In this document: piece by piece, positions 1,225-12,084 of the stretch
Position numbering within the stretch: the stretch's first letter is position 1
How the letters are laid out: the number at the start of each line of letters is the position of its first letter
Source of the DNA: Daejeonella sp. H1SJ63
GTDB lineage: Bacteria > Bacteroidota > Bacteroidia > Sphingobacteriales > Sphingobacteriaceae
Reading direction: 5' to 3'
DNA: 64,000 nt
Assembly: GCF_029360775.1 (NCBI RefSeq)
Contig: NZ_JARKMZ010000028.1
Coordinates: 1 to 64,000, forward strand
The notes under the pieces: generated by a model
The model's input: only the letters and a program-made list of their open reading frames with translations
The model's database searches: none
What the model was told of the DNA's origin: nothing
Program-made: the position numbers and the translations under genes

Positions 1225-1225
1225 G

Positions 1226-1299
1226 TGCGCCCACCTGGGCTCGAACCAGGGACCAAAAGATTATGAGTCTTCTACTCTAACCAACTGAGCTATGGGCGC
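1226..1299 (-). tRNA. tRNA with CAU anticodon (Met elongator or Ile2)
   Basis: Read on the minus strand, the acceptor stem GCGCCCA pairs with TGGGCGC, the T stem CCTGG/CCAGG encloses TTCGAGC, and the anticodon loop CTCATAA gives anticodon CAU. The G1-C72 pair argues against initiator tRNA. CAU leaves elongator Met or lysidine-modified Ile2, which I cannot separate. CCA is not encoded. The D stem and anticodon stem each contain one G-U pair. The 5' half (1261-1299) is duplicated at 8071-8109, so this gene is the attachment site of the island. Its 3' half is ancestral chromosome and its 5' flank and promoter are island-derived. Confidence 0.93.
1261..1299 (-). repeat. attL: 39-bp direct repeat (tRNA 5' half)
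   Basis: These 39 bp are identical to 8071-8109 and diverge immediately on both sides (bases 1260 and 8070 differ, as do 1300 and 8110). The repeat runs from the tRNA 5' end through the anticodon loop. The crossover therefore lay in the 5' half, and the island sits upstream of the tRNA. Confidence 0.92.
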
Positions 1300-1333
1300 T
1301 CATTCCACCAAAAGGCAGCATGATTTGAGGTTG

Positions 1334-1364
1334 CAATTTTACGGAAATGCTTTGGGATTCTAAA
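1334..1364 (-). promoter_or_regulatory. Island-borne tRNA promoter
   Basis: On the minus strand, TTTA (1364-1361) precedes TAAAATTG (1341-1334) by 19 nt. Each box differs by one base from the Bacteroidota consensus TTTG / TAnnTTTG. The TSS would fall about 27 nt upstream of the tRNA. The surrounding bases 1327-1372 align with 8184-8229 at roughly four in five positions, so the element carries a diverged copy of the host tRNA promoter. Confidence 0.6.
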
Positions 1365-1463
1365 ATAGAATTTAGGAATTATTCGAATTTGATCACTAAT
1401 CGCAATATATAAGGGATTTAATCAGTAGAATTCTGGATACAGCTTTAAAATTTACTGCGATTC

Positions 1464-1661
1464 ATGCTGCCTTCACTATCATCAGTTTTACCTGTAAACA
1501 TCCTTACAGTTTCAATTAGCGAGACAAAAAGTGAGACAAAAGTGAGACAATATGAAATAAAAATAAGCTCTAATGAGAGCTTAAATCAACGAAGCTTTAT
1601 ATCAATTACTATCGACGGAAAGAGACACAAAGTGCAGATTGAGACGTTACAAAGACTATAA
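1464..1661 (+). CDS. Small ORF, possible remnant of integrase arm domain
   Basis: This 65-aa reading frame near the island end is of uncertain reality. Its C-terminal half (SFISITIDGKRHK) resembles the beta-strand/basic pattern of arm DNA-binding domains at the N-terminus of Bacteroidota tyrosine recombinases. It stops where the core-binding domain would begin. The N-terminal third overlaps the GAGACAA repeats. It may be the only trace of the island's integrase, or a chance ORF across arm sites. I favour neither strongly. Confidence 0.25.
   Translation: MLPSLSSVLPVNILTVSISETKSETKVRQYEIKISSNESLNQRSFISITIDGKRHKVQIETLQRL
1521..1549 (+). repeat. Three GAGACAA heptamers, left island end
   Basis: GAGACAA occurs at 1521, 1533 and 1543, a spacing of 12 and 10 bp, in the same orientation. 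The same heptamer occurs twice at the right end (7884 and 7895, spacing 11 bp). Helical-turn spacing near both element ends fits recombinase arm-type sites or excisionase sites; this is inference. Confidence 0.5.
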
Positions 1662-1688
1662 ATCCCTCAGATCCTGTAACTTCATACC

Positions 1689-2591
1689 ATGACGAATAAT
1701 GAGATATCCAAGCTTCAAGCTCTTCTTAAAATAACCTTCGACAGTGAGAGCACAACCAATATACAATATGGGGAAGTTGTACTGCAGAAGGTTAATGTCC
1801 TTTTAGAATTAATCGATTCTCTAGCAACTGAATCTGTTAAAATTGCAGGCTGGAAGACATGGTCTGAACCAATTGTCTTTAAGTTTTGCTACCATACTTG
1901 TTCGTTAATCCATCTTTTTAACGGCACAGAACTACCTGTTAAATTTGAAGGAGCATTTCTTAAAGTGCTTGATGAGCCAAGCATAATAATTATACTACGA
2001 ACAATCCTTGAGAATTATCTAACCTTCCACTACTTATACATAGATAATATATCCGATGAGGAGAAGGTGTTTCGGCTATTGGTTTATCGTTATTCAGGTC
2101 TAAAACAAAGATCGGAATTCGATATAATAAATACATCTAAAGCTAAGGAGAAGCAAATAAAGGAAGGCGAGCAAGTCCAAGACCTTAAGGATCAGATAAC
2201 TCAATCGAACCTATTTAAATCCTATTCTAGTAAACAGAGAACCGAGATACTAGACGGGAAGAAGGCTAGGCTCTTTAATTCATGGGCTGCACTAATTAAG
2301 AAGAGCAATCTTAATACTCATTTCTTTAAAAACCTATACGGATATAAATCTAATTACTCTCATAGTGAGTTCATCAGCATAATGCAAATTAAAGATGGTG
2401 GCTACCGCCACTCAGACGCTAACACTAGAAGTCACCACCTTTTAATGATTGTTCAACTATTGGTTTGCAAAACTATAATCGAATTAAAGGCATTCTTCCC
2501 AACTATGGAAAGTAAATACTCATCGTTTGAACAAACAATGCAAACTGAAATCGAATATTTACATAGCCTTAGCATAAACGACGGCTTCTAA
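1689..2591 (+). CDS. Hypothetical protein, helical, with YSHSEF motif
   Basis: This 300-aa protein has no signal peptide or membrane segment. It is mostly helical. A central RTILENYLTFHYLY segment (about residues 105-118) and a C-terminal YKSNYSHSEF segment (about 223-232) resemble the layout of DUF5677-like proteins that contain an arginine/histidine pair in helical bundles. I cannot assign a function. It is the first gene of the island and is separated from the methyltransferase cluster by a 0.6-kb non-coding stretch, so it is probably transcribed separately. Its codon use is AT-rich like the rest of the island. The start ATG at 1689 is the first in frame after a stop-rich region. Confidence 0.7.
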   Translation: MTNNEISKLQALLKITFDSESTTNIQYGEVVLQKVNVLLELIDSLATESVKIAGWKTWSEPIVFKFCYHTCSLIHLFNGTELPVKFEGAFLKVLDEPSIIIILRTILENYLTFHYLYIDNISDEEKVFRLLVYRYSGLKQRSEFDIINTSKAKEKQIKEGEQVQDLKDQITQSNLFKSYSSKQRTEILDGKKARLFNSWAALIKKSNLNTHFFKNLYGYKSNYSHSEFISIMQIKDGGYRHSDANTRSHHLLMIVQLLVCKTIIELKAFFPTMESKYSSFEQTMQTEIEYLHSLSINDGF

Positions 2592-2878
2592 TCATCCCAA
2601 ATCCATCCCTTCCTCTCTTTGCTGCTTACAGGGAGAAAGTGATGGTTTGGTCTTCAGTTTTAAGGGAAGTCAGTGGTAGTGCTCTCTTTATGGGTTCGTG
2701 CGGACCAGTCGTACTATTAAGAGCCAGTGGAAGCTTTGAATGTCAGACTCAGGAAGATACGCACTCCGCAACGACTAAGCTCGCATCAAGAACGCCAGAT
2801 ATTCCCATCGCACAGATCTTGGTTTAATCAACCAGGATCCAACCTTATAGAATATCTGTCATGCTTAATGCTTTGAGC

Positions 2879-2949
2879 AAGCGGGTTGCTACGTAGAAGC
2901 TCACTTATATTTCCTCCCTTCCATAGCCCTGGCAGAAATATAACCGCTT
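2879..2949. ncRNA. Y-shaped palindrome, possible structured RNA
   Basis: AAGCGG (2879-2884) pairs with CCGCTT (2944-2949). TTATATTTC (2905-2913) pairs with GAAATATAA (2935-2943), and the two 3' arms are contiguous. A self-complementary CTACGTAG lies in the 5' bulge, giving a three-way junction. Fifteen paired positions without mismatch in a non-coding stretch suggest a folded RNA or a protein-binding DNA cruciform. The strand and function are unknown. Confidence 0.35.
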
Positions 2950-3185
2950 CTCACCAGTAGGCGAACCTGCGGCCTCACTCGGCATCGGTCTGTCACAATT
3001 ATTGAGTTTCCAACCCACAAATCCATTAAATCAACAATTCCGCCAAACCTCGTGTTTTCTGAAGGGAAAACATATCACCGGCTCACTCTGCGAGTTTTAC
3101 GCCCGTGACCTCATTCGATTCGCAAAGGCGGTTCGCACATCGTTATAGCTTCATTATTCTCATCAATATGCGACATATTATGAAT

Positions 3186-3216
3186 TTTGTCTCAATAATT
3201 AATATTTATACATTTA
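3186..3216 (+). promoter_or_regulatory. Putative promoter of the methyltransferase cluster
   Basis: TTTTG (TTG ending at 3189) and TACATTTA (3209-3216) are separated by 19 nt, one base off the Bacteroidota -7 consensus TAnnTTTG. The start codon follows at 3223, so the transcript would be nearly leaderless. Confidence 0.5.
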
Positions 3217-3222
3217 CTAACA

Positions 3223-4044
3223 ATGAAGGAGAAGTTAACCGTAGCAAAACCCTTTCTTAGGTGGGCTGGTGGCAAAAGCTGGTTGACCAAGCATATTGCA
3301 AATTTTTTACCGTCTAAGGGTTTTGTGAAGTATCACGAACCTTTCGTGGGTGGAGGTTCAATTTATTTTCATCTTCACCCTAATAAAGCTATAATATCGG
3401 ATCTGAACGAGGAGCTAATCGGAACTTACCTTCAAGTTCAAAACAATATTGACCAAGTAATTAAGGAGTTAAGGCAATACGAAAACACGGAAGAATGCTA
3501 TTATCAGCTCAGAAATACTCAGGTACAAAGTGAAGTTGAGAAAGCGGCTCGTTTTATTTTTCTCAATCAAACTTCATTTAATGGCATCTATCGGGTAAAC
3601 CTCAAAGGTGAATACAATGTCCCTTACGGTTACCGTAACAAAGATTTCTTAGACGAAGCGAACTTAACTGCTGCAAGCCTTGTACTGCAAGGCCGTAAAA
3701 TTGTCCACAACGACTTCCACAGTAGTTTAAAAGCTGTCGGGAAGGGAGACTTGGTTTTTATTGACCCACCTTATACAGTAACTCATAACAACAACGGATT
3801 CATTAAATATAATAAAAAGTTATTCGATTTAGAGTCGCAAATAAGGCTATCAGAATATATCGACGAAATAAAGGATAGAGGTGCATACTACATACTAACC
3901 AACGCTGATCACCATGAAATAGAAAGAATATTTCATAAGGAAGGTGATCAGATCTTTAGAATGAACCGAGCTAGTCTCATCGGAGGCAAGAATGCAATTA
4001 GAGGTCAATACAGTGAATTGATTATAACAAATTCAACATTATGA
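3223..4044 (+). CDS. Dam-like DNA adenine N6-methyltransferase
   Basis: This 273-aa D12-class (alpha group) methyltransferase transfers a methyl group from S-adenosylmethionine to adenine N6 in DNA. Visible motifs are FLRWAGGKSWL near the N-terminus, the SAM-binding FVGGGSIYFHL (about residues 41-51), NQTSFNGIYRVN, and the catalytic DPPY in FIDPPYTVTH (about 184-193). All are intact and the length matches Dam/DpnM enzymes. The target site cannot be read from sequence. It overlaps the next gene by four bases (ATGA), so the two are translationally coupled and probably work together. In that context the enzyme may mark self DNA for the nuclease-like partner, or act as an orphan modifier. Confidence 0.92.
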   Translation: MKEKLTVAKPFLRWAGGKSWLTKHIANFLPSKGFVKYHEPFVGGGSIYFHLHPNKAIISDLNEELIGTYLQVQNNIDQVIKELRQYENTEECYYQLRNTQVQSEVEKAARFIFLNQTSFNGIYRVNLKGEYNVPYGYRNKDFLDEANLTAASLVLQGRKIVHNDFHSSLKAVGKGDLVFIDPPYTVTHNNNGFIKYNKKLFDLESQIRLSEYIDEIKDRGAYYILTNADHHEIERIFHKEGDQIFRMNRASLIGGKNAIRGQYSELIITNSTL

Positions 4045-6425
4045 GCTTTTTACCCCAATACGAAATAGACCAATTCAAAAGTAAGTTAGTAAGTGACTTA
4101 TCAGTTTTGGGGAAAATCTACAAGGCAAAAAAGAGCACTCATTACACATTAAGTGTAGATCATTCAAGGGTAGATGATATGATGGCTGATGGCTGGGAGA
4201 TTGTAGTAGAGCGAAAGAAAATGGCTACGAAAACCAAAGTAAGGAAGCCGAAGTCACACTCTACACAGTTTGAAGATGATATATGGTGTCAGTTATATGA
4301 ATTGGGTTATAGGCACTTGAATTATGATGAACAATGCACGATACCTTACGCAGAAGGTGCTCATAATAAACAGCAAGTCGATGTCGTTGCGATCGACAAT
4401 GAAACTGTTTTATTAATTGAATGCAAGTCTAGTCAGTCATTGCAAAAGGCACCTTCGTTCAAAGAGGTTCTTGAATCTTTGCCTATCAAACTCGATGGAT
4501 TTCGAAAGACCATTGAGCAAGCATTTGGTCGCGGTCGTAAAGTGAAATATATTTTTGCCACAAGGAATCTACGGATAGATCCAACTGACGTAGACTACCT
4601 TAGATTGAGAGTTTCCGGATCGTTTTATTATGGAGATAATACCTTTACCTATATCAATAGCCTCCTGAAAGCTTACAAGGGAGTTGCTACATATCAATTT
4701 TTGGGTTTATTATTCAAAAATGAACTCATAAATCAAGACAGGATAGAAATCCCTGCTGTAGAGGGAGATATGGGGGACAGAAAATATTACATGTTTTCAA
4801 TTGAGCCTAAATTATTACTCAAGATGAGCTTCATCATGCATCGAACTCGTGCTAATGTAGAGGAGCTACCAACATATCAAAGATTATTAGTTTCAAAGCG
4901 ACTTGGCGGCATAACCAAATTTATTGATGAGGGCGGGTATTTCCCTAACTCATTAATTTTAAATTTCAGTCAACAGAAACATGATATACAATTTGAACCC
5001 TCGTCTAAACTATCGCATTCCTCCTCAAGATTTGGGACTTTGAAAATACCAAATGCCTACGCAATAGCTTATATCATCGATGGACAACACCGACTATATG
5101 GCTACGCAAATTCTCGATATAAAGATACTGATACGATACCAGTTGTGGCTTTTAACAAGTTACCCGCAGAAGAGCAGTTAAAGACTTTCATGGATATTAA
5201 TCAGAATCAAAAAGCTGTTAGCCCTAGCCTAAAACACGACTTAGAAGAAGATCTCTACTGGTTGTCACCTAAAGCAGAATTGAGGATGAAGGCATTGAGA
5301 TCTTCAATAGTAAAGGGATTATCTAATACACAGGATAGCCCATTATTTAACAAAATTACAATTGGTGAGGATGGTTCAGTTCTTTCTATGAAAGCCTTCA
5401 TAACAGCCATAAGCCAATCAGGTTTAATCCCTTATGCAAGGGGTAATAAATATTCAAATGGAACGAACGCAGGGCTCCTTTATAATATCGCCAATCAGAA
5501 CCACGAAGTAGAAATGAAGAGGGCTAGAAAAAATGTGGTTCGCTTTTTATTACAATGTTACGAATACGTAGCTGACCATTATCCCGCGATCTTTGAACGA
5601 CCACAATACTTTATAGTCTCAGTAAGAGGAACTTTTGCTTTCGTCAGATTAATAGGGCTAATCAATACTTATATCTCAGAAATCAATAATTTCAGTCCTG
5701 ATACACAGAGCAATGATCGTTTTGAAGCGATTAAACCATTCTTGCATTCACTACTTGAAGGTTTGAATAATATCACACCTGAAGAGGAGAGAAAACAACT
5801 ATCCATATTTGGAACTGGTGCAGAATCTCAATGGTTAAGCTTTTTTCAATCCTTAGTAAATATCAGGCATCCAGAATACAATCCTCCTGAACTTATCTCC
5901 TGGAGAGAGAAAAATGACGTTCAACTTCAGGATGAAGGACGAAAATACATTATCGCTGTTGAGAAGTATATTAAGAAAGCAGTTATCGATAAGCTGAAGT
6001 TACTGTTCAAGGATAATTGGACTTTGGAAATAAATGACATATATCAAGCTTGCATGAAGCGGGCTGGCGATGAGAATACAAAGAACTACAAAGAGCAATT
6101 ATCAAAATCAAACGTTGAGTGGACAGAGATGTTTACTATCGTAGACTATAAGAAAATACTAGAATCATACTGGACTAAAGTTCCTGAAGATGAGTCTGAT
6201 AGACTAGGGTTTAAGACTTTTGAAAAAGAATTCACGATTGATGTCGGACACGGCGTACATGGTCCGAAACAACAACTTAAATGGATAACAATATTCAATT
6301 CACATAGAAATATACTTGCACACGAGGGTTCAAAGGAGACCGGTTTGAATAAAGAAGAGGTTATGTTTCTAAGAAAGATATATGACTACTTTTTTAGTAC
6401 AGCAAGTGTGCAACAAGTTTCCTAA
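4041..6425 (+). CDS. PD-(D/E)XK-like / DGQHR / HEPN-like multidomain protein
   Basis: This 794-aa protein combines three recognisable parts. Near the N-terminus, D114 and the ECK motif at E127-K129 at the end of a VLLIECK strand match the active-site pattern of PD-(D/E)XK nucleases. The DGQHR pentapeptide at residues 347-351 (IIDGQHRLYGY) is the hallmark of the DGQHR family that includes DndB, the regulator of phosphorothioate modification; the ISF-like ligase/ParB-type fold is family knowledge, not visible here. At the C-terminus, SHRNILAHEG (R756 to H761) fits the RNxxxH motif of HEPN RNase domains of the Swt1 type. It is coupled to the methyltransferase by ATGA and followed by two small genes. 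No dndCDE genes are nearby. I infer a defence or genome-modification effector in which two nuclease-like ends flank a sensing or regulatory middle. Confidence 0.85.
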   Translation: MSFLPQYEIDQFKSKLVSDLSVLGKIYKAKKSTHYTLSVDHSRVDDMMADGWEIVVERKKMATKTKVRKPKSHSTQFEDDIWCQLYELGYRHLNYDEQCTIPYAEGAHNKQQVDVVAIDNETVLLIECKSSQSLQKAPSFKEVLESLPIKLDGFRKTIEQAFGRGRKVKYIFATRNLRIDPTDVDYLRLRVSGSFYYGDNTFTYINSLLKAYKGVATYQFLGLLFKNELINQDRIEIPAVEGDMGDRKYYMFSIEPKLLLKMSFIMHRTRANVEELPTYQRLLVSKRLGGITKFIDEGGYFPNSLILNFSQQKHDIQFEPSSKLSHSSSRFGTLKIPNAYAIAYIIDGQHRLYGYANSRYKDTDTIPVVAFNKLPAEEQLKTFMDINQNQKAVSPSLKHDLEEDLYWLSPKAELRMKALRSSIVKGLSNTQDSPLFNKITIGEDGSVLSMKAFITAISQSGLIPYARGNKYSNGTNAGLLYNIANQNHEVEMKRARKNVVRFLLQCYEYVADHYPAIFERPQYFIVSVRGTFAFVRLIGLINTYISEINNFSPDTQSNDRFEAIKPFLHSLLEGLNNITPEEERKQLSIFGTGAESQWLSFFQSLVNIRHPEYNPPELISWREKNDVQLQDEGRKYIIAVEKYIKKAVIDKLKLLFKDNWTLEINDIYQACMKRAGDENTKNYKEQLSKSNVEWTEMFTIVDYKKILESYWTKVPEDESDRLGFKTFEKEFTIDVGHGVHGPKQQLKWITIFNSHRNILAHEGSKETGLNKEEVMFLRKIYDYFFSTASVQQVS

Positions 6426-6459
6426 CCACCATTCATCATACACAACTACTAATCGCATT

Positions 6460-6735
6460 ATGTCAAAAGTTACCGGAGAATACCCAGATGGCTACAGTCA
6501 AATAATTAAGAATGATTTCTACCTTGATGCCGATCAAGCCATGAATCCTTTTACATGGGAACCGCCAATTCATTGGAACGGGATAGTGGGGGGTCTGCAA
6601 GTAAAATTTACGCAGATTCACAGTTCAGGATCTAGCAAACATGATTTTGATTGGAGTGATTTCCCAGAGGATTTAGTCATTGCTATACCTTATATCGTTG
6701 ATGCGATTAATAAGGCAATGAAAGTTATGGATTAG
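6460..6735 (+). CDS. Small hypothetical protein of the island cluster
   Basis: This 91-aa acidic protein, read from the ATG at 6460, follows the DGQHR gene stop by 34 bp. An upstream in-frame ATG at 6382 would overlap that gene by 44 bp and add a low-complexity extension, so I prefer 6460. The sequence has aromatic-rich loops (NPFTWEPPIHWNGI) and ends in a helix (AIPYIVDAINKAMKVM). No family is recognised. Position and spacing place it in the same transcript as the methyltransferase and multidomain protein, so it could be an accessory or immunity component. Confidence 0.6.
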   Translation: MSKVTGEYPDGYSQIIKNDFYLDADQAMNPFTWEPPIHWNGIVGGLQVKFTQIHSSGSSKHDFDWSDFPEDLVIAIPYIVDAINKAMKVMD

Positions 6736-6764
6736 TATTCAGTAAATCGTTCCCTGATAAATAA

Positions 6765-7142
6765 ATGCCCAGTTCAATTGAAATCTCAGCCCTGCTAACA
6801 CTAGCATATGATATTTTAGCAGATTTCTCTGGCAGGAAAGCTGCTAACAAACAGAGTATAGCCAAAGCACATGGATTGATAAATCACGCTTTTATCCAAA
6901 CTTACAATTACTTAAAGAATGAAAAAGGGGAATATCTACCGAGCATAACTTTAGCTGAAGCCTGGAATGAAGCTGCAACTGCGACACTGGTTGTTGATGC
7001 CGGACTAGGTGATATTCTTTATCATAAATCAAGGTTTTGGCTAAATCCTGAATTATACATTAACCTAGCTAGGGGATCTGAAATTATTAAATTAAATGAA
7101 GTTGTTGATGAAATGGAACGATTACGGATGAAAATTAAATAA
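6765..7142 (+). CDS. Hypothetical helical protein of the island cluster
   Basis: This 125-aa protein lies 29 bp after the preceding small gene. It appears mostly alpha-helical, with a segment (AYDILADFSGRK, KAHGLINHAFIQTYNYL) that could form a small bundle and a charged C-terminal helix. It has no signal peptide, membrane segment or known motif. It is the last gene of the four-gene cluster, so a role with the methyltransferase and multidomain protein is likely from context only. Confidence 0.65.
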   Translation: MPSSIEISALLTLAYDILADFSGRKAANKQSIAKAHGLINHAFIQTYNYLKNEKGEYLPSITLAEAWNEAATATLVVDAGLGDILYHKSRFWLNPELYINLARGSEIIKLNEVVDEMERLRMKIK

Positions 7143-7234
7143 TCTGACTATAGTGTTAGACAACCACAAAGGAGCAATAATACGCTTATTTATTTGGCCA
7201 CGACCACAAAGACTTCAACTACTTTATTATTAAT

Positions 7235-7266
7235 AATCTCCACAAATTTATCTTTCAATCTCCACA
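7235..7266 (+). repeat. Direct repeat AATCTCCACA, 22 bp apart
   Basis: AATCTCCACA occurs at 7235-7244 and 7257-7266, two helical turns apart. The second copy forms the left arm of the palindrome at 7252-7351. It may be a regulator or initiator binding site. Confidence 0.4.
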
Positions 7267-7351
7267 CATTAAAAGGAGCTTGGCATAAACCCACTATGCC
7301 ACGCACAAGTCCATTTATTCCACTCCTCCTTTATTTAGTGGAGATAGAAAG
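7252..7351. promoter_or_regulatory. 100-nt nested palindrome before the JAB gene
   Basis: Three nested inverted repeats share one centre: CTTTCAATCTCCAC (7252-7265) with GTGGAGATAGAAAG (7338-7351), one mismatch in 14; AAAGGAG (7272-7278) with CTCCTTT (7326-7332); and TGGCATA (7281-7287) with TATGCCA (7295-7301), 7-nt loop. The structure lies in the intergenic gap and ends 29 bp before the RadC-type gene. It could be a structured RNA, a replication or transfer signal, or a leader. Confidence 0.55.
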
Positions 7352-7380
7352 CTGATTGAGTTCCATATAAATAAAAAAAT

Positions 7381-7839
7381 ATGGAAACTAAACAAAATTT
7401 AAAGGTAGCTGAGGTAAAATTAACCTACAAGACATCAGTAAAGGCATCTGACAGACCGCAGATTAACTCATCGGTTGAAGTTTATACCGTTTTGAAAGAG
7501 AACTGGAACTTTGAAATTATTGAGTTCATTGAGGAATTTAAGATTATACTGCTTAACAGGGCTAACAGGGTTTTAGGGATTGTACCTATCTCTGTAGGTG
7601 GTACAGCAGGGACGATAGCTGATCCAAAGGTGATATTTGTTTCAGCACTTAAATGCAATGCATCATCAGTGATTTTGGTCCATAATCATCCCAGTGGTAA
7701 CCTTAAACCTAGCCAGGCAGATATAGAGCTTACAAGAAAATTAAAAGCAGCAGGACAGTTTTTAGATCTACCAGTACTAGATCATATAATCCTGACAAGA
7801 GATGCATACTTTAGTTTTGCAGATGAAGGATTAATCTAA
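7381..7839 (+). CDS. RadC-family JAB-domain protein
   Basis: This 152-aa protein consists essentially of the RadC-type JAB domain. The metal-site signature HNHPSG followed by SxxD (VHNHPSGNLKPSQADIEL, about residues 101-118) and the downstream LDHIILTRDAYFSFADEG block are intact. The N-terminal helix-hairpin-helix part of full-length RadC is missing. This short form is very common on Bacteroidota mobile elements, usually of unknown function; a metalloprotease or nucleic-acid role has been proposed for the fold. It follows the 100-nt palindrome and is the last gene before the right island end. The start ATG at 7381 follows an A-rich leader with no clear ribosome binding site. Confidence 0.88.
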   Translation: METKQNLKVAEVKLTYKTSVKASDRPQINSSVEVYTVLKENWNFEIIEFIEEFKIILLNRANRVLGIVPISVGGTAGTIADPKVIFVSALKCNASSVILVHNHPSGNLKPSQADIELTRKLKAAGQFLDLPVLDHIILTRDAYFSFADEGLI

Positions 7840-7883
7840 AGGAATTGTAAATTAGAATTTAAACAGAAAGGAGGTTTTTTTAA

Positions 7884-7901
7884 GAGACAAACGCGAGACA
7901 A
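7884..7901 (+). repeat. Two GAGACAA heptamers, right island end
   Basis: GAGACAA at 7884 and 7895 (11 bp apart) has the same orientation as the three copies at the left end. Together they frame the island as expected for recombinase arm sites. Confidence 0.5.
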
Positions 7902-8070
7902 AAAACCAAATTCTTGGTTAAATCAGGGAATTTGGAACAGAGATTATAAATTAATTATTTAACAGGTCTCAATTGAAAACATAAGGAAAATAGGCATTTA
8001 AGCGACAATAACGTCAAATTGATGATAGAATTGAATGGTCTGAAAAACGGTGAGAATTACGAAAATTGCT

Positions 8071-8109
8071 TTATGAGTCTTCTACTCTAACCAACTGAGC
8101 TATGGGCGC
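8071..8109 (-). repeat. attR: 39-bp direct repeat (orphan tRNA 5' half)
   Basis: This is identical to 1261-1299. It has the acceptor 5' strand, D arm and anticodon loop but no 3' half, so it cannot encode a tRNA. Any transcript from the ancestral promoter at 8191-8220 would produce a truncated tRNA-like 5' fragment. Confidence 0.92.
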
Positions 8110-8190
8110 AGGACTCGTCCGCCGTAGCTTTAACTAAGACGACTCGTGTATTTCTCACCTGTATTAAACTCTGGTGGTTAAACGAGGTTG

Positions 8191-8220
8191 CAAATCTATA
8201 TAAATGCATTGGAATTCAAA
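8191..8220 (-). promoter_or_regulatory. Ancestral tRNA promoter, displaced by the island
   Basis: On the minus strand, TTTG (8220-8217), an 18-nt spacer and TAGATTTG (8198-8191) match the Bacteroidota promoter consensus exactly. It points at the orphan tRNA half at 8071-8109. Confidence 0.65.
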
Positions 8221-8329
8221 AATAGAATTCAGAAAACTATTTTTTATGCATTTCTCATCCTGAAATAACTATCTACTTGAATAAACAATTCCTGAATATA
8301 AATTGATTTGTAGAACTAAGGATCTGAGA

Positions 8330-10138
8330 TTAATCCAGTACCTGAGCCTCAGATTCTTCAAATTCGCCTTGATCAACTGATACAAATGGCTGGTTTGGGA
8401 TCTTTATACAGAATTTACTGCCTTTATTCAGTTCGCTTTCTACCCGGATGGTACCGCCGTTTTTCTCAACGAAATCTTTGCATAATAACAGGCCCAGTCC
8501 GGTGCCCTGCTCATTCTCAGTACCCGGGGTAGTAAAGGTTTCCTGCTCAAATAGCTTCTTCTGGTTTGCTTCTGATATTCCAACCCCGGTATCTCTGCAG
8601 CAGATCACTGAATATTCACCTTCAGTTCCTGAGCTCAGAATGATACTTCCGCCACGTTTCGAAAACTTAGCCGCATTCGAGATCAGGTTTCTCATTACCA
8701 GCTGAATCATATCCTTGTCGGCATAAACGATGCAGCTCTCGTCAATATTATTCTCAACCTTCAGCATTTTCTCTGCAATAGCATTCTCAAAAAGATGAAG
8801 TATGTTATCGCAGACTTCCTTTAAATTGAAATGTACCGGGTTGATCATCTCTCCCTGAAGCTGACTCCTCGACCAGAACAGAAGATTTTCTAGTAGTCCG
8901 GTGGTGTATCCGATATTACGTGACAGAACAGGAATAAAGGCATGAAACTCCTCATCAGAGATTGCGCCTTCATTCAGTAGTTTAATGATATCATTCAGGT
9001 TGATTAGTGGTCCGCGCAGATCATGAGAAATGATGGAGAATAGACGATCTTTTAGTTTATTGGTTGCCTGTAGCTGTTCAGACTGAGTTCTGATTTTGTT
9101 TTCGATATAAACCTGATCTGTAATATCTCTAACCAGCAAAATTAAGCCGCTGTAAATAAGTGTATCCTCAAATAGGGGACTCAGATTCACTTCAAGGAAA
9201 ACAGGTTTTCCGTTTTTTTGAATTTCGATCTTGATCCGTCCGGGTTTCTTTTTCTGAATGAATTCCAGAAGCTCTGATTGCCCCTCAAAGATGCTGTCAA
9301 TATTTCTGCCGATCATACTTTCACCCCTCAATGAAAATATTTTTCTGGATTCCCTGTTCAGGTCGATGATTCGTCCCATGCTATCAGCTACGATCAATCC
9401 CTGGTTCATGGCATCAATTACCTTATCCCGGGCAACCGGAATAATGTCCATCAGTTTAAATTTAACTAATCCGACGCTGATAGCAAGTGCTGTAATTATA
9501 AATGCAAATGGCGTACTGTCAACATGCCCCATTGGTCTGAATCCCATCAGGTATGCAATATTTGCAATCCAGGGAATAAAGGCGGCAATCATGACTGATA
9601 AATGCTGTTTTTTGAAAACAGGGTCTGATCTTCTGAACTTATCGATCAGCAGATATACCCCCCATGCCAGGAGCAAATAAAAATATACGGTATGCACCAC
9701 GTACCATGGACCGGTTTGTATACTTAACAGGGGGAAGTCGCCTGAGCGATCAACAGAAACACTTTTATAATGAAGGTGATGCAAATTGTTTGTCCAGACC
9801 AGAAGCAGGGTAATTACCGGAACCTTCATCAGAAGGATGAAATTGGTGGTCGAAAGCCATTTGTCTCTTCCAGTATATCTGGAGATAAACAGAAGCCAGA
9901 ACGCCGGAATAAATGAGATGCCAAGGTATTCAATATTGATCCAGAATAACATCTCATCCAGAGTGGAACTTGAGAGTTCAAATCCATAACTTAGCGCCCA
10001 AATGGCAATGCCAAGCATCATAAATCCAAACCAGCGAACCACAATTTCATATCTGCGAAAGATCCAGTAACACATATAAAATGTGATCAAGCCACAGAGA
10101 ATCAGAATGATGGAGTAGATGTTCGGATTAAAGGTCAT
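8330..10138 (-). CDS. 7TM-PAS sensor histidine kinase
   Basis: This 602-aa inner-membrane sensor kinase has seven hydrophobic segments in the first 225 residues, matching the histidine-kinase N-terminal 7TM region. A PAS domain follows (about 235-345, with GRIIDLNRESRKIFSL), then a HisKA dimerisation helix with the phospho-acceptor H372 in ISHDLRGP, and a HATPase domain with NLISNAAKF, RDTGVGIS and GTGLGLLL boxes. All catalytic boxes look intact. No response regulator is adjacent, so it is an orphan kinase here; the divergent neighbour is a HAD phosphatase. The ligand of the 7TM part is unknown. Confidence 0.9.
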   Translation of the reverse strand: MTFNPNIYSIILILCGLITFYMCYWIFRRYEIVVRWFGFMMLGIAIWALSYGFELSSSTLDEMLFWINIEYLGISFIPAFWLLFISRYTGRDKWLSTTNFILLMKVPVITLLLVWTNNLHHLHYKSVSVDRSGDFPLLSIQTGPWYVVHTVYFYLLLAWGVYLLIDKFRRSDPVFKKQHLSVMIAAFIPWIANIAYLMGFRPMGHVDSTPFAFIITALAISVGLVKFKLMDIIPVARDKVIDAMNQGLIVADSMGRIIDLNRESRKIFSLRGESMIGRNIDSIFEGQSELLEFIQKKKPGRIKIEIQKNGKPVFLEVNLSPLFEDTLIYSGLILLVRDITDQVYIENKIRTQSEQLQATNKLKDRLFSIISHDLRGPLINLNDIIKLLNEGAISDEEFHAFIPVLSRNIGYTTGLLENLLFWSRSQLQGEMINPVHFNLKEVCDNILHLFENAIAEKMLKVENNIDESCIVYADKDMIQLVMRNLISNAAKFSKRGGSIILSSGTEGEYSVICCRDTGVGISEANQKKLFEQETFTTPGTENEQGTGLGLLLCKDFVEKNGGTIRVESELNKGSKFCIKIPNQPFVSVDQGEFEESEAQVLD

Positions 10139-10184
10139 TCAATAATATGTCTGATGAGGTCAGAATTGTTTTTACACTAAAGAT

Positions 10185-10823
10185 ATGAATAAGATTAGCA
10201 ATATAATTTTTGATTATGGCAATGTGATATTCACAATAGATTTTAAGCGTGCACAGCAAAGTTTTACCGATCTGGGTATTAAAGATGTTGAGCATTTTTT
10301 TTCTCATGCAGGGCATGCCCCGATTTTCGATCAGTTTGAACGGGGCTTAATTTCAGCTGAAGAATTCAGGGAGGGCATCCGGAAAATCATCGGAAATCCT
10401 GAACTGACAGACGATCAGATTGATAATGCATGGAATTCTCTGTTGATCGGAGTACCTGAGCCTAATCATGATTTACTGCTCAAAGTCAAAGACCAATACC
10501 GTACTTTTCTGCTGAGTAATAATAATGAGATTCATTACAACTGGATCATCGATTATTTGAGAAGGGAGCACCATCTCGACTCAAATGCGATCTTTTTTGA
10601 AAAGGATTATTACTCTCATCTCATGAAAATGCGCAAGCCCAATCCTGAGATTTTTGAATATGTTTTAAAGGAACATCAGCTTGATCCGGCAGAAACTTTG
10701 TTCATTGATGACAGTCCCCAGCATTTAAAGACAGCAGCAAATCTGGGTCTGCATACACATTTGCTTACAAAGGATGAAAGCCTGGAAAATTTTCTATACT
10801 CTTCAGGAATACTCAAAAAATAA
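10185..10823 (+). CDS. HAD-family phosphatase, YihX-like
   Basis: This 212-aa cytoplasmic HAD hydrolase has motif I IFDYGNVIF near the N-terminus, motif II in FLLSNNNEIH, a lysine in KMRKPNPEIF (motif III) and motif IV in LFIDDSPQHL. The FDxGNV form of motif I, with Gly where many HADs have the second Asp, is normal for the YihX-type subfamily, whose E. coli member removes phosphate from glucose-1-phosphate. The actual substrate is uncertain. It is divergent from the sensor kinase with a 46-bp gap. Length is typical. Confidence 0.85.
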   Translation: MNKISNIIFDYGNVIFTIDFKRAQQSFTDLGIKDVEHFFSHAGHAPIFDQFERGLISAEEFREGIRKIIGNPELTDDQIDNAWNSLLIGVPEPNHDLLLKVKDQYRTFLLSNNNEIHYNWIIDYLRREHHLDSNAIFFEKDYYSHLMKMRKPNPEIFEYVLKEHQLDPAETLFIDDSPQHLKTAANLGLHTHLLTKDESLENFLYSSGILKK

Positions 10824-10908
10824 AATCCGGATTACACTGATTATATGGTCTGCTATCAGATTTACTGCTGTTCAGGGAACTGCTTAACGGCAAGGGAAAA
10901 TTTAGAAA

Positions 10909-12084
10909 TTAATCCAGTTTACGACGTTTTTTTTCAGCATTGATCAGGCGTAATTCCCTGCTCATTTGTCCGGCAACCGATGTGTTTTCCTCAGCTCTTC
11001 TGAACAGATAGGGCATCACCGCTTTTACTGGTCCGTACGGGACATATTTTGCCACATTATAGCCAGAAGCAGCGAGGTTAAAACTTAAATTATCACTCAT
11101 GCCAAGAAGCTGTGAGAAGAACACATGTCCGTGATTGTGAGGAATACCGTCTTTGTCCAGAAGTTCTGCCAATAAGCGACAACTATTTTCATTATGCGTA
11201 CCGGCAATAAATGAAATATTCGCAATATTATCCAGACAGAATTTCAAAGCGTCATTATAATCTCTGTCGGTCGATTCCTTGTCTTTATTTATTGGTGAGG
11301 GATAATTTAATTCTTCAGCCCGTTTACGTTCCTTTTCCATGTATGCCCCACGTACGAGCTTGGCTCCAAGGAAAAAGCCTTCTTTTTTTGCAATTTTATG
11401 ATCAGCTTTCAGTGAATCCAGTTTATCATTTCTATATAACTGATAGGTATTGAATACAATAGCATTTTCCTGATTGTATCTGCGCATCATTTCCAAAGCG
11501 AGAGAATCAATCGTATCCTGTATCCAGCTTTCTTCAGCATCGATCATCACCCTGACGTTCAGGTCATATGCATATCCGCAAATCCGGTCGATCCTGCTTT
11601 TGATCCGCTCAAACTCTGCGTTCTTGCCTGTGTCCAGAGCTTGTTTGGTATCTGTTTTCTCCAGCAAAGCAAATCTTGCCAGTCCGGTACTTTTAAACAC
11701 GGTAAATGGAATCCGTTCATCTCCATCTGCACGCTTAATTGTTTTCATGATCTCCTCACAGGTGGCATCAAAAATTTCTTCATCTTCTTCGCCTTCCACA
11801 GAATAGTCCAGGATCGACCCAACACCGCCTGCATCAAGCTGATTTACCGTTTTTTCACAATCCTGAATGCTCTCTCCGCCGCAAAAATGACGAAAAATGG
11901 TCGATTGGATCAGTGATTGGATGGGTAAACCGATCTTAAGGGCGAAAATGGTTATTGGAGGACCTATCTTCGTAAGGAAATTGACGTTGATCATCCTGAA
12001 CAGCCAGTATGCACGATTCAGATCTGCATTCGTTTTACCACGAAAAGCAATCTCAGTGTCGTCAAAAGAAAGATTTTGGTTCAT
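10909..12084 (-). CDS. putA: Proline dehydrogenase
   Basis: This 391-aa FAD-dependent proline dehydrogenase, in monofunctional form, oxidises L-proline to pyrroline-5-carboxylate and passes electrons to the membrane quinone pool. Visible family features are GAKLVRGAYMEKER (beta-barrel strand with the substrate arginine region), GTHNENS, and the C-terminal YVPYGPVKAVMPYLFRRAEEN block, where the paired arginines bind proline carboxylate. No aldehyde dehydrogenase domain is fused, unlike the PutA of proteobacteria, so the second step must be encoded elsewhere. It is divergent from the S4-aroB pair. The symbol prodh would be equally correct. Confidence 0.92.
   Translation of the reverse strand: MNQNLSFDDTEIAFRGKTNADLNRAYWLFRMINVNFLTKIGPPITIFALKIGLPIQSLIQSTIFRHFCGGESIQDCEKTVNQLDAGGVGSILDYSVEGEEDEEIFDATCEEIMKTIKRADGDERIPFTVFKSTGLARFALLEKTDTKQALDTGKNAEFERIKSRIDRICGYAYDLNVRVMIDAEESWIQDTIDSLALEMMRRYNQENAIVFNTYQLYRNDKLDSLKADHKIAKKEGFFLGAKLVRGAYMEKERKRAEELNYPSPINKDKESTDRDYNDALKFCLDNIANISFIAGTHNENSCRLLAELLDKDGIPHNHGHVFFSQLLGMSDNLSFNLAASGYNVAKYVPYGPVKAVMPYLFRRAEENTSVAGQMSRELRLINAEKKRRKLD

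Follow-up and report, generated by a model that had tools for sequence, protein, structure and literature searches.

Introduction

The closest described counterparts of the locus studied here are the Frpo and ssi sites of F, ColIb-P9 and their relatives. Frpo folds from single-stranded DNA and restores its −10 and −35 boxes in doing so, and its expression in recipients is early and transient, ending once the DNA becomes double-stranded (PMC9849209). The leading regions that carry Frpo promoters include genes of the SSB, methyltransferase and umuDC types (PMC11541004). By means of single-stranded promoters, a conjugating element can disarm its host before its DNA is double-stranded. In the portions of the literature that we draw on, the single-stranded promoters described so far belong to F-like and other proteobacterial plasmids, and no report of such promoters in Bacteroidota was found in the literature searched, part of which was judged by titles.

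Several other elements bear on the comparison. A radC-associated RNA motif (Rfam RF01754) is listed for Proteobacteria (PMC2864571, Table 1). STAXI (Rfam RF01728), an arrangement of tandem pseudoknots in Enterobacteriales, lies near SSB, anti-restriction and integrase genes, and its authors already raised a role for single-stranded DNA (PMC2864571). As for promoters of the Bacteroidota, that of B. fragilis reads TAnnTTTG, with TTTG near −33 (PMC7366714), and the −7 box of a flavobacterium occupies positions −12 to −5, with the variant TAnnTTGY (PMC9723704).

Here we analysed a stretch of 64,000 nucleotides from Daejeonella sp. H1SJ63 (hereafter the window), in which a structured site precedes a small radC gene. 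Judged from sequence, the site is best accounted for as Frpo-like, and would work as the known Frpo kind does with a phylum-specific design. The likeness is one of anatomy and gene setting, known Frpo being compared by description only. In both, a long imperfect single-strand hairpin with reconstituted promoter boxes (here by sequence pattern) stands in template-strand orientation upstream of ssb, anti-restriction, methyltransferase and umuDC-type genes, in several copies per element. Unlike Frpo, which has TTGACA/TATAAT boxes, the sites described here have Bacteroidota −33/−7 boxes, a GCGNAGC mini-hairpin in one subtype and a start-codon dyad, and they are found mainly with small RadC genes and in tRNA-integrated elements. 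With RF01754 they share the position of a structured element upstream of radC, but the strand evidence here points to the template strand; with STAXI they share the proximity to SSB, anti-restriction and integrase genes, but not the tandem pseudoknots. An Rfam cmscan gave only tRNA and weak chance matches (first 14 kb of the window to E 1; 7140–7400 to E 10; eight relatives at gathering score), and neither RF01754 nor STAXI was matched at the window site or in the eight relatives.

Results

A nested palindrome precedes radC near the end of a tRNA-bounded island

The small RadC/JAB protein gene (152 residues, PF04002) lies at 7381–7839 on the + strand, and a 100-nt nested palindrome (7252–7351) ends 29 bp before it, both being close to the right-hand end of an island of 6,810 bp. 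As in a tRNA-gene integrative element, the island has a direct repeat of part of a tRNA gene at both ends: one copy (1261–1299, − strand) is the 5′ part of an intact tRNA-Met gene (1225–1299), and an exact 39-bp copy of it lies at the other end (8071–8109, − strand). The island also encodes a D12 DNA methyltransferase, a DndB-domain protein and a DUF5677 protein; no integrase or relaxase was recognised by Pfam scan among its seven proteins, three of which have no family assignment.

The palindrome, which an earlier note had picked out by inspecting the letters, is present as described there and folds well on both strands (RNA folding z = −7.0 for the + strand and −5.9 for the − strand, with 0 of 200 shuffles equally stable). 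Arm pairing, folds and relatives together define its two arms, of which the right one (7314–7351) is arm 1 of the − strand, the template side adjoining radC, and the left one (7252–7289) is arm 2, the 3′ arm of the − strand. They pair at 74% across 38 nt, through a 14-bp helix with one mismatch (CTTTCAATCTCCAC/GTGGAGATAGAAAG), a 7-bp helix (AAAGGAG/CTCCTTT, 7272–7278/7326–7332) and a further inner helix (TGGcATAAA/TTTATtCCA) that closes the palindrome; the innermost local palindrome, GGCATA/TATGCC, is not conserved in relatives. The conserved unit exceeds the 100 nt of the palindrome, running from about 7225 to the radC start codon at 7381. This start codon is spanned by a dyad, TTCCATAT/ATATGGAA (7361–7386), which is kept in relatives as CCATAAT...ATTATGG with a loop of variable length. 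A direct repeat at two-turn spacing, claimed alongside the palindrome, is real, with 14-nt copies of AATCTCCACA(A/C)ATT at 7235–7248 and 7257–7270 on the + strand (93%, 22-nt step), but among relatives only the two closest (L009 and L010) retain it, and it does not belong to the conserved part.

A family of related structures lies upstream of small radC genes

DNA similar to 7150–7380 was found in 9 of 60 genomes, the window's own genome being one of the 60, and a RadC protein search, in which chromosomal radC is included, gave matches in 146 of the 151 genomes of the window's family. We retrieved 60 small-radC loci and inspected their upstream regions. A structure of subtype A or subtype B is present upstream in 48 of them, and the window is a further case, giving totals of 27 subtype-A and 22 subtype-B sites; the 12 loci with neither subtype include one pseudogene, one contig end and other sequences.

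Covariance models were built from unique sites, R2 from the 27 of subtype A and R1 from 21 of subtype B. Across the 151 family genomes, R2 matches in 59 and R1 in 29, and merging the matches of both yields 123 places. Many places are matched by both R1 and R2, and we therefore regard the subtypes as variants of a single structure. Sixty-six of the 123 places are directly upstream of a small radC, all on the template strand of that gene and none reversed. Seen from the genes, 98 of the RadC matches listed were classed as small (one with a 246-residue frame), and 66 of these have a model match upstream. All these family counts are of sequences related by descent and are not independent. No constant gene partner of radC emerged from the neighbour counts.

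Run on 20 chromosomal radC genes from the same family, R2 gave no match. Across 395 genomes of the phylum R1 has matches in 2 only, and a strong upstream fold (z < −3) was seen in only 2 of 30 small-radC loci of more distant Bacteroidota. The structure family hardly extends beyond one Sphingobacteriaceae-like lineage, and a universal Bacteroidota feature is rejected for now on the R1 count. A dispersed repeat or MITE was likewise rejected: the palindrome site occurs once in the genome that carries it, and most of the copies found elsewhere accompany genes or element ends. Fold energy was dropped as a test of such sites, since the upstream regions of chromosomal radC controls fold equally well, probably owing to terminators: with DNA parameters and 200-nt windows, the median z is −1.34 for subtype A vs −2.6 for the 20 same-family controls. 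As fold energy does not set the sites apart, we rely on conservation, covariation and placement instead.

A covarying structure whose wobble pairs favour the template strand

In the subtype-B alignment, 93.1% of cells are paired and changes on both sides occur in 17 of 34 pairs. None of 500 shuffles matched this pairing, and sliding the partner by 1–3 columns reduced it to 35–52%. To ask which strand folds, only pairs predicted from both strands were counted and the start-codon hairpin was left out. G·T pairs on the radC template strand outnumber A·C pairs, which correspond to G·U in the mRNA, by 18:6 in subtype A and 32:14 in subtype B, a pooled bias of 50:20 towards the template strand (binomial p = 4e-4, relatedness ignored). 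The evidence on the acting strand favours radC's template strand, and this wobble bias argues against an mRNA leader.

Promoter-like boxes are conserved at the hairpin base

At the hairpin base, the template strand carries a Bacteroidota-type promoter pattern, TT(G/T)-N~22-TAAnTTTG. In the window, the −7 box TAAATTTG (7243–7250, − strand) is an exact match to TAnnTTTG, and in the DNA fold all eight of its nucleotides, at the base of the hairpin, are unpaired. A −33-like TTTT (7271–7274, − strand) lies 20–21 nt upstream of this box, the position being taken in most relatives by TTG or TTT at 22 nt; the 22-nt spacer is nearly constant among subtype-A sites. When TT(G/T)-N19-23-TAnnTTTG was searched for, it was found on the template strand of 18 of the 27 subtype-A sites, vs 0.9 in shuffles (maximum 4) and 4 of 20 chromosomal radC controls (Fisher p 0.003), and on the opposite strand of none of the 27. 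Upstream of the structure, no promoter-like enrichment was detected on the radC strand, and neither inside the structure nor upstream of it does the + strand carry the full pattern in any of the 27 subtype-A or 21 subtype-B sites. In duplex DNA the boxes point away from radC, whereas in the folded single strand they point into it. The upstream neighbour runs in the same direction as radC in 31 of 48 loci and is divergent in 17.

Subtype B has a different layout, in which the TTG lies too far from the −7 box and GCGNAGC stands between them. This motif is present in 17 of the 21 subtype-B sites, with three further variants, and lies 21–24 nt (mode 23) from the −7 box in the 15 of 21 sites where the box was found, a distance that fits, so that the spacing would be right only if the strand is single and a mini-hairpin is extruded. 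Any middle base generally serves in the GCGNAGC mini-hairpin. Mini-hairpins of the GCGAAGC type in DNA are extraordinarily stable (PMC10527192).

Outside the training alignments, an exact TAnnTTTG is found in 15 of 19 copies, a figure partly built in because the covariance model spans the −7 region. Each of the eight copies at tRNA ends described below has TTG or TTT at a fitting spacing. No exact −7 box was present in the examined interval of either copy upstream of SSB, and several subtype-B sites read GA where the −7 box has TA.

Copies precede entry-type genes and mark element ends

For 54 further model matches we examined the gene downstream. It encodes SSB in two cases, ArdC in one, an N6_N4 methylase in one, an N6 methylase in two and a DUF6876 protein in two; two more copies precede radC genes beyond the listed small-RadC set, 20 have no ORF starting close downstream, and the rest are unremarkable. 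Four core-only partial copies precede mutually similar genes, of which the one scanned belongs to DUF6943. The core-only partial copies (L184–L191 and L210) cover model positions 27 to ~100 and keep only the stem tip.

The element at L182 has three copies within 2.3 kb (locus 5001–11028), preceding DUF6876, a short ORF then radC, and a short ORF then UmuD (S24)-UmuC-SRAP; the interval 5001–11028 is a candidate for a compact set of single-strand entry genes. The earlier note had tied the structured site to element-borne radC, and the link is strongly supported (48 of 60 loci; 66 of the 98 small RadC matches); within the window's family, homologous genes mostly do not lack the structure upstream, the outcome by which the note had proposed to refute itself. 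What does not hold is a link specific to the gene of the JAB protein, for copies also precede SSB, ArdC, DNA methyltransferases, DUF6876 and UmuDC-SRAP or stand alone at element ends; nor do conservation of the direct repeat and a general fold in distant Bacteroidota.

Plasmid loci differ. Neither R1 nor R2 matches at the six plasmid radC loci L046–L051 despite the expected neighbours, small radC being followed there by ArdC (L046 and L049 by Pfam, L047 by annotation) or ArdA (L051). The radC genes of Pontibacter and Pedobacter plasmids have different dyads upstream, as judged solely from inspection and folding. On the Pontibacter plasmids (L046, ~2260–2410, and L047), pairing is possible between GTTCCATACACA, located far upstream, and TGTGTATGGAAC, in the region of the radC start codon; this is a long dyad of another kind and stands before radC-ArdC-MobC-relaxase. 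A relaxase-like gene lies on radC's strand in 11 of 11 loci, downstream in seven and upstream in four, so the leading-region position of the sites is not uniform.

Eight solitary copies stand 226–308 bp (about 250 bp) from a tRNA gene, on the side towards which they would fire. Six tRNA-end elements were viewed more widely, and three of them have a second copy of the tRNA, in part or whole, at the far end (18.4, 19.1 and 9.2 kb). In two of these three, a tyrosine integrase (PF00589) is the first gene past the far repeat, on the same strand; none was seen in the third. With the element ends joined, the solitary site would face the integrase gene. At L201, L206, L172 and other tRNA-end loci lie tRNA-integrated elements of 9–19 kb that combine a solitary structure at one end with an integrase at the opposite end, the latter in two of the three that were checked.

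Discussion

On balance, we lean towards the view that conjugative or mobilisable elements use the site as a Frpo-like promoter, working on single-stranded DNA, for their entry genes. Such a start signal, read from single-stranded DNA, would probably switch on radC, SSB and anti-restriction genes at entry. The conserved and covarying structure, its fixed orientation and distance, the boxes and their spacing, the wobble bias and the entry-type genes all favour this reading. Taking the features of a Frpo-type site in turn, covariation and folds provide the stem-loop; the boxes are present as a sequence pattern (in full at 18 of 27 subtype-A sites, and as an exact −7 box in 15 of the 19 copies that were not used for training); and entry genes are represented downstream of copies by SSB, ArdC, methyltransferases and UmuDC-SRAP, the window itself offering radC only. 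We count against it the mixed relaxase position, the lack of matches at plasmid loci, the near absence outside the lineage, the 20 of 54 copies with no ORF, the window island with no recognised relaxase or integrase, the SSB copies with no exact −7 box and the GA variants.

In the proposed mechanism, the window island would enter by conjugation, and the mobile element would arrive in the recipient as a single strand, presumably radC's template strand, and fold at the site into a long hairpin. The 3′ arm of this hairpin would serve as the non-template strand carrying −33 (TTG/TTT) and −7 (TAAnTTTG), the arm adjoining radC would serve as template, and the −7 box, lying in a bubble at the base of the hairpin, would already be open. 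RNA polymerase would then start just outside this base, near the start codon, and read into radC or another establishment gene; in the window the predicted start is near 7365, directly before an A-rich leader and the ATG. Once the second strand is made, the boxes would point away from the gene and the promoter would be off. The start-codon dyad, in turn, could keep read-through RNA untranslated.

Other explanations deserve weighing. If the structure were a cis-acting RNA leader, placed in the 5′ UTR of the radC mRNA and controlling its translation like the proteobacterial radC RNA motif (PMC2864571, Table 1), its position directly upstream of the start codon, the inclusion of this codon in a conserved dyad and the stable fold of the + strand would be in keeping with that precedent; we nevertheless think a leader unlikely, as the wobble pairs favour the other strand, the + strand promoter pattern is found in 0 of 27 subtype-A and 0 of 21 subtype-B sites, no Rfam family matches, and the conserved opposite-strand promoter would be left unexplained. 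That promoter might instead be an ordinary duplex promoter firing away from radC, the palindrome being a protein-binding or terminator-like element between divergent units. The subtype-A boxes do read as a plain − strand promoter, and the upstream neighbour is divergent in 17 of the 48 loci; but with 31 of 48 neighbours co-directional with radC there is no conserved divergent gene, and the spacing in subtype B is right only with the mini-hairpin extruded, which makes a duplex promoter improbable in our judgement.

The same anatomy would also serve a single-strand initiation or origin site (ssi/sso), where the sole task of the folded DNA would be to attract RNA polymerase or primase for priming of the second strand. 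Frpo itself was reportedly titled a promoter for both transcription and primer synthesis by Masai and Arai in 1997, and the solitary element-end copies have no gene between copy and tRNA. Priming as the sole role would not fit well with how closely, and in one direction only, the copies are coupled to the start codons of establishment genes, nor with the integrase as next gene across the joined ends in two elements, and we assign it a small probability. We give very little credence to a recombination or transfer site, an oriT- or attC-like folded strand only incidentally beside radC: the eight loci with copies about 250 bp from tRNA genes and the closeness of the window's radC to an attachment repeat would suit it, but several copies per element before different genes (three within 2.3 kb at L182) and conserved promoter boxes would not.

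The Frpo-like promoter remains our preferred reading, and a bolder version of it can be put forward tentatively, as a possibility we would not bet on. Bacteroidota mobile elements may have their own class of single-stranded-DNA promoter, read by the phylum's unusual sigma factor only after folding and, in subtype B, only after the mini-hairpin sets the −33/−7 spacing. Transcription from element-end copies might cross the joined attachment site and enter the integrase gene, so that the template for integrase would be the circular single strand that has just entered. The start-codon dyad might keep radC untranslated from long read-through RNAs, since an RNA lacks the 5′ half of the dyad only when it starts within it. 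More generally, a phylum-specific version of single-stranded promoters, with boxes of its own, would explain the presence of RadC, whose role is unsettled, beside SSB, ArdC and methyltransferases, would place RadC among establishment genes and would offer a sequence-based route to unknown entry genes in Bacteroidota.

Further features of the window island

The stretch at 2592–3222 (~630 bp), between the DUF5677 and methyltransferase genes, is without a convincing gene. Within the island (1225–8109), the D12 methyltransferase gene adjoins that of the DndB-domain protein, and together with the DUF5677 protein these possibly form a defence or modification cassette moved in trans. GAGACAAA-like words are repeated near both island ends (1518–1550 and 7883–7905) and are perhaps integrase arm sites.
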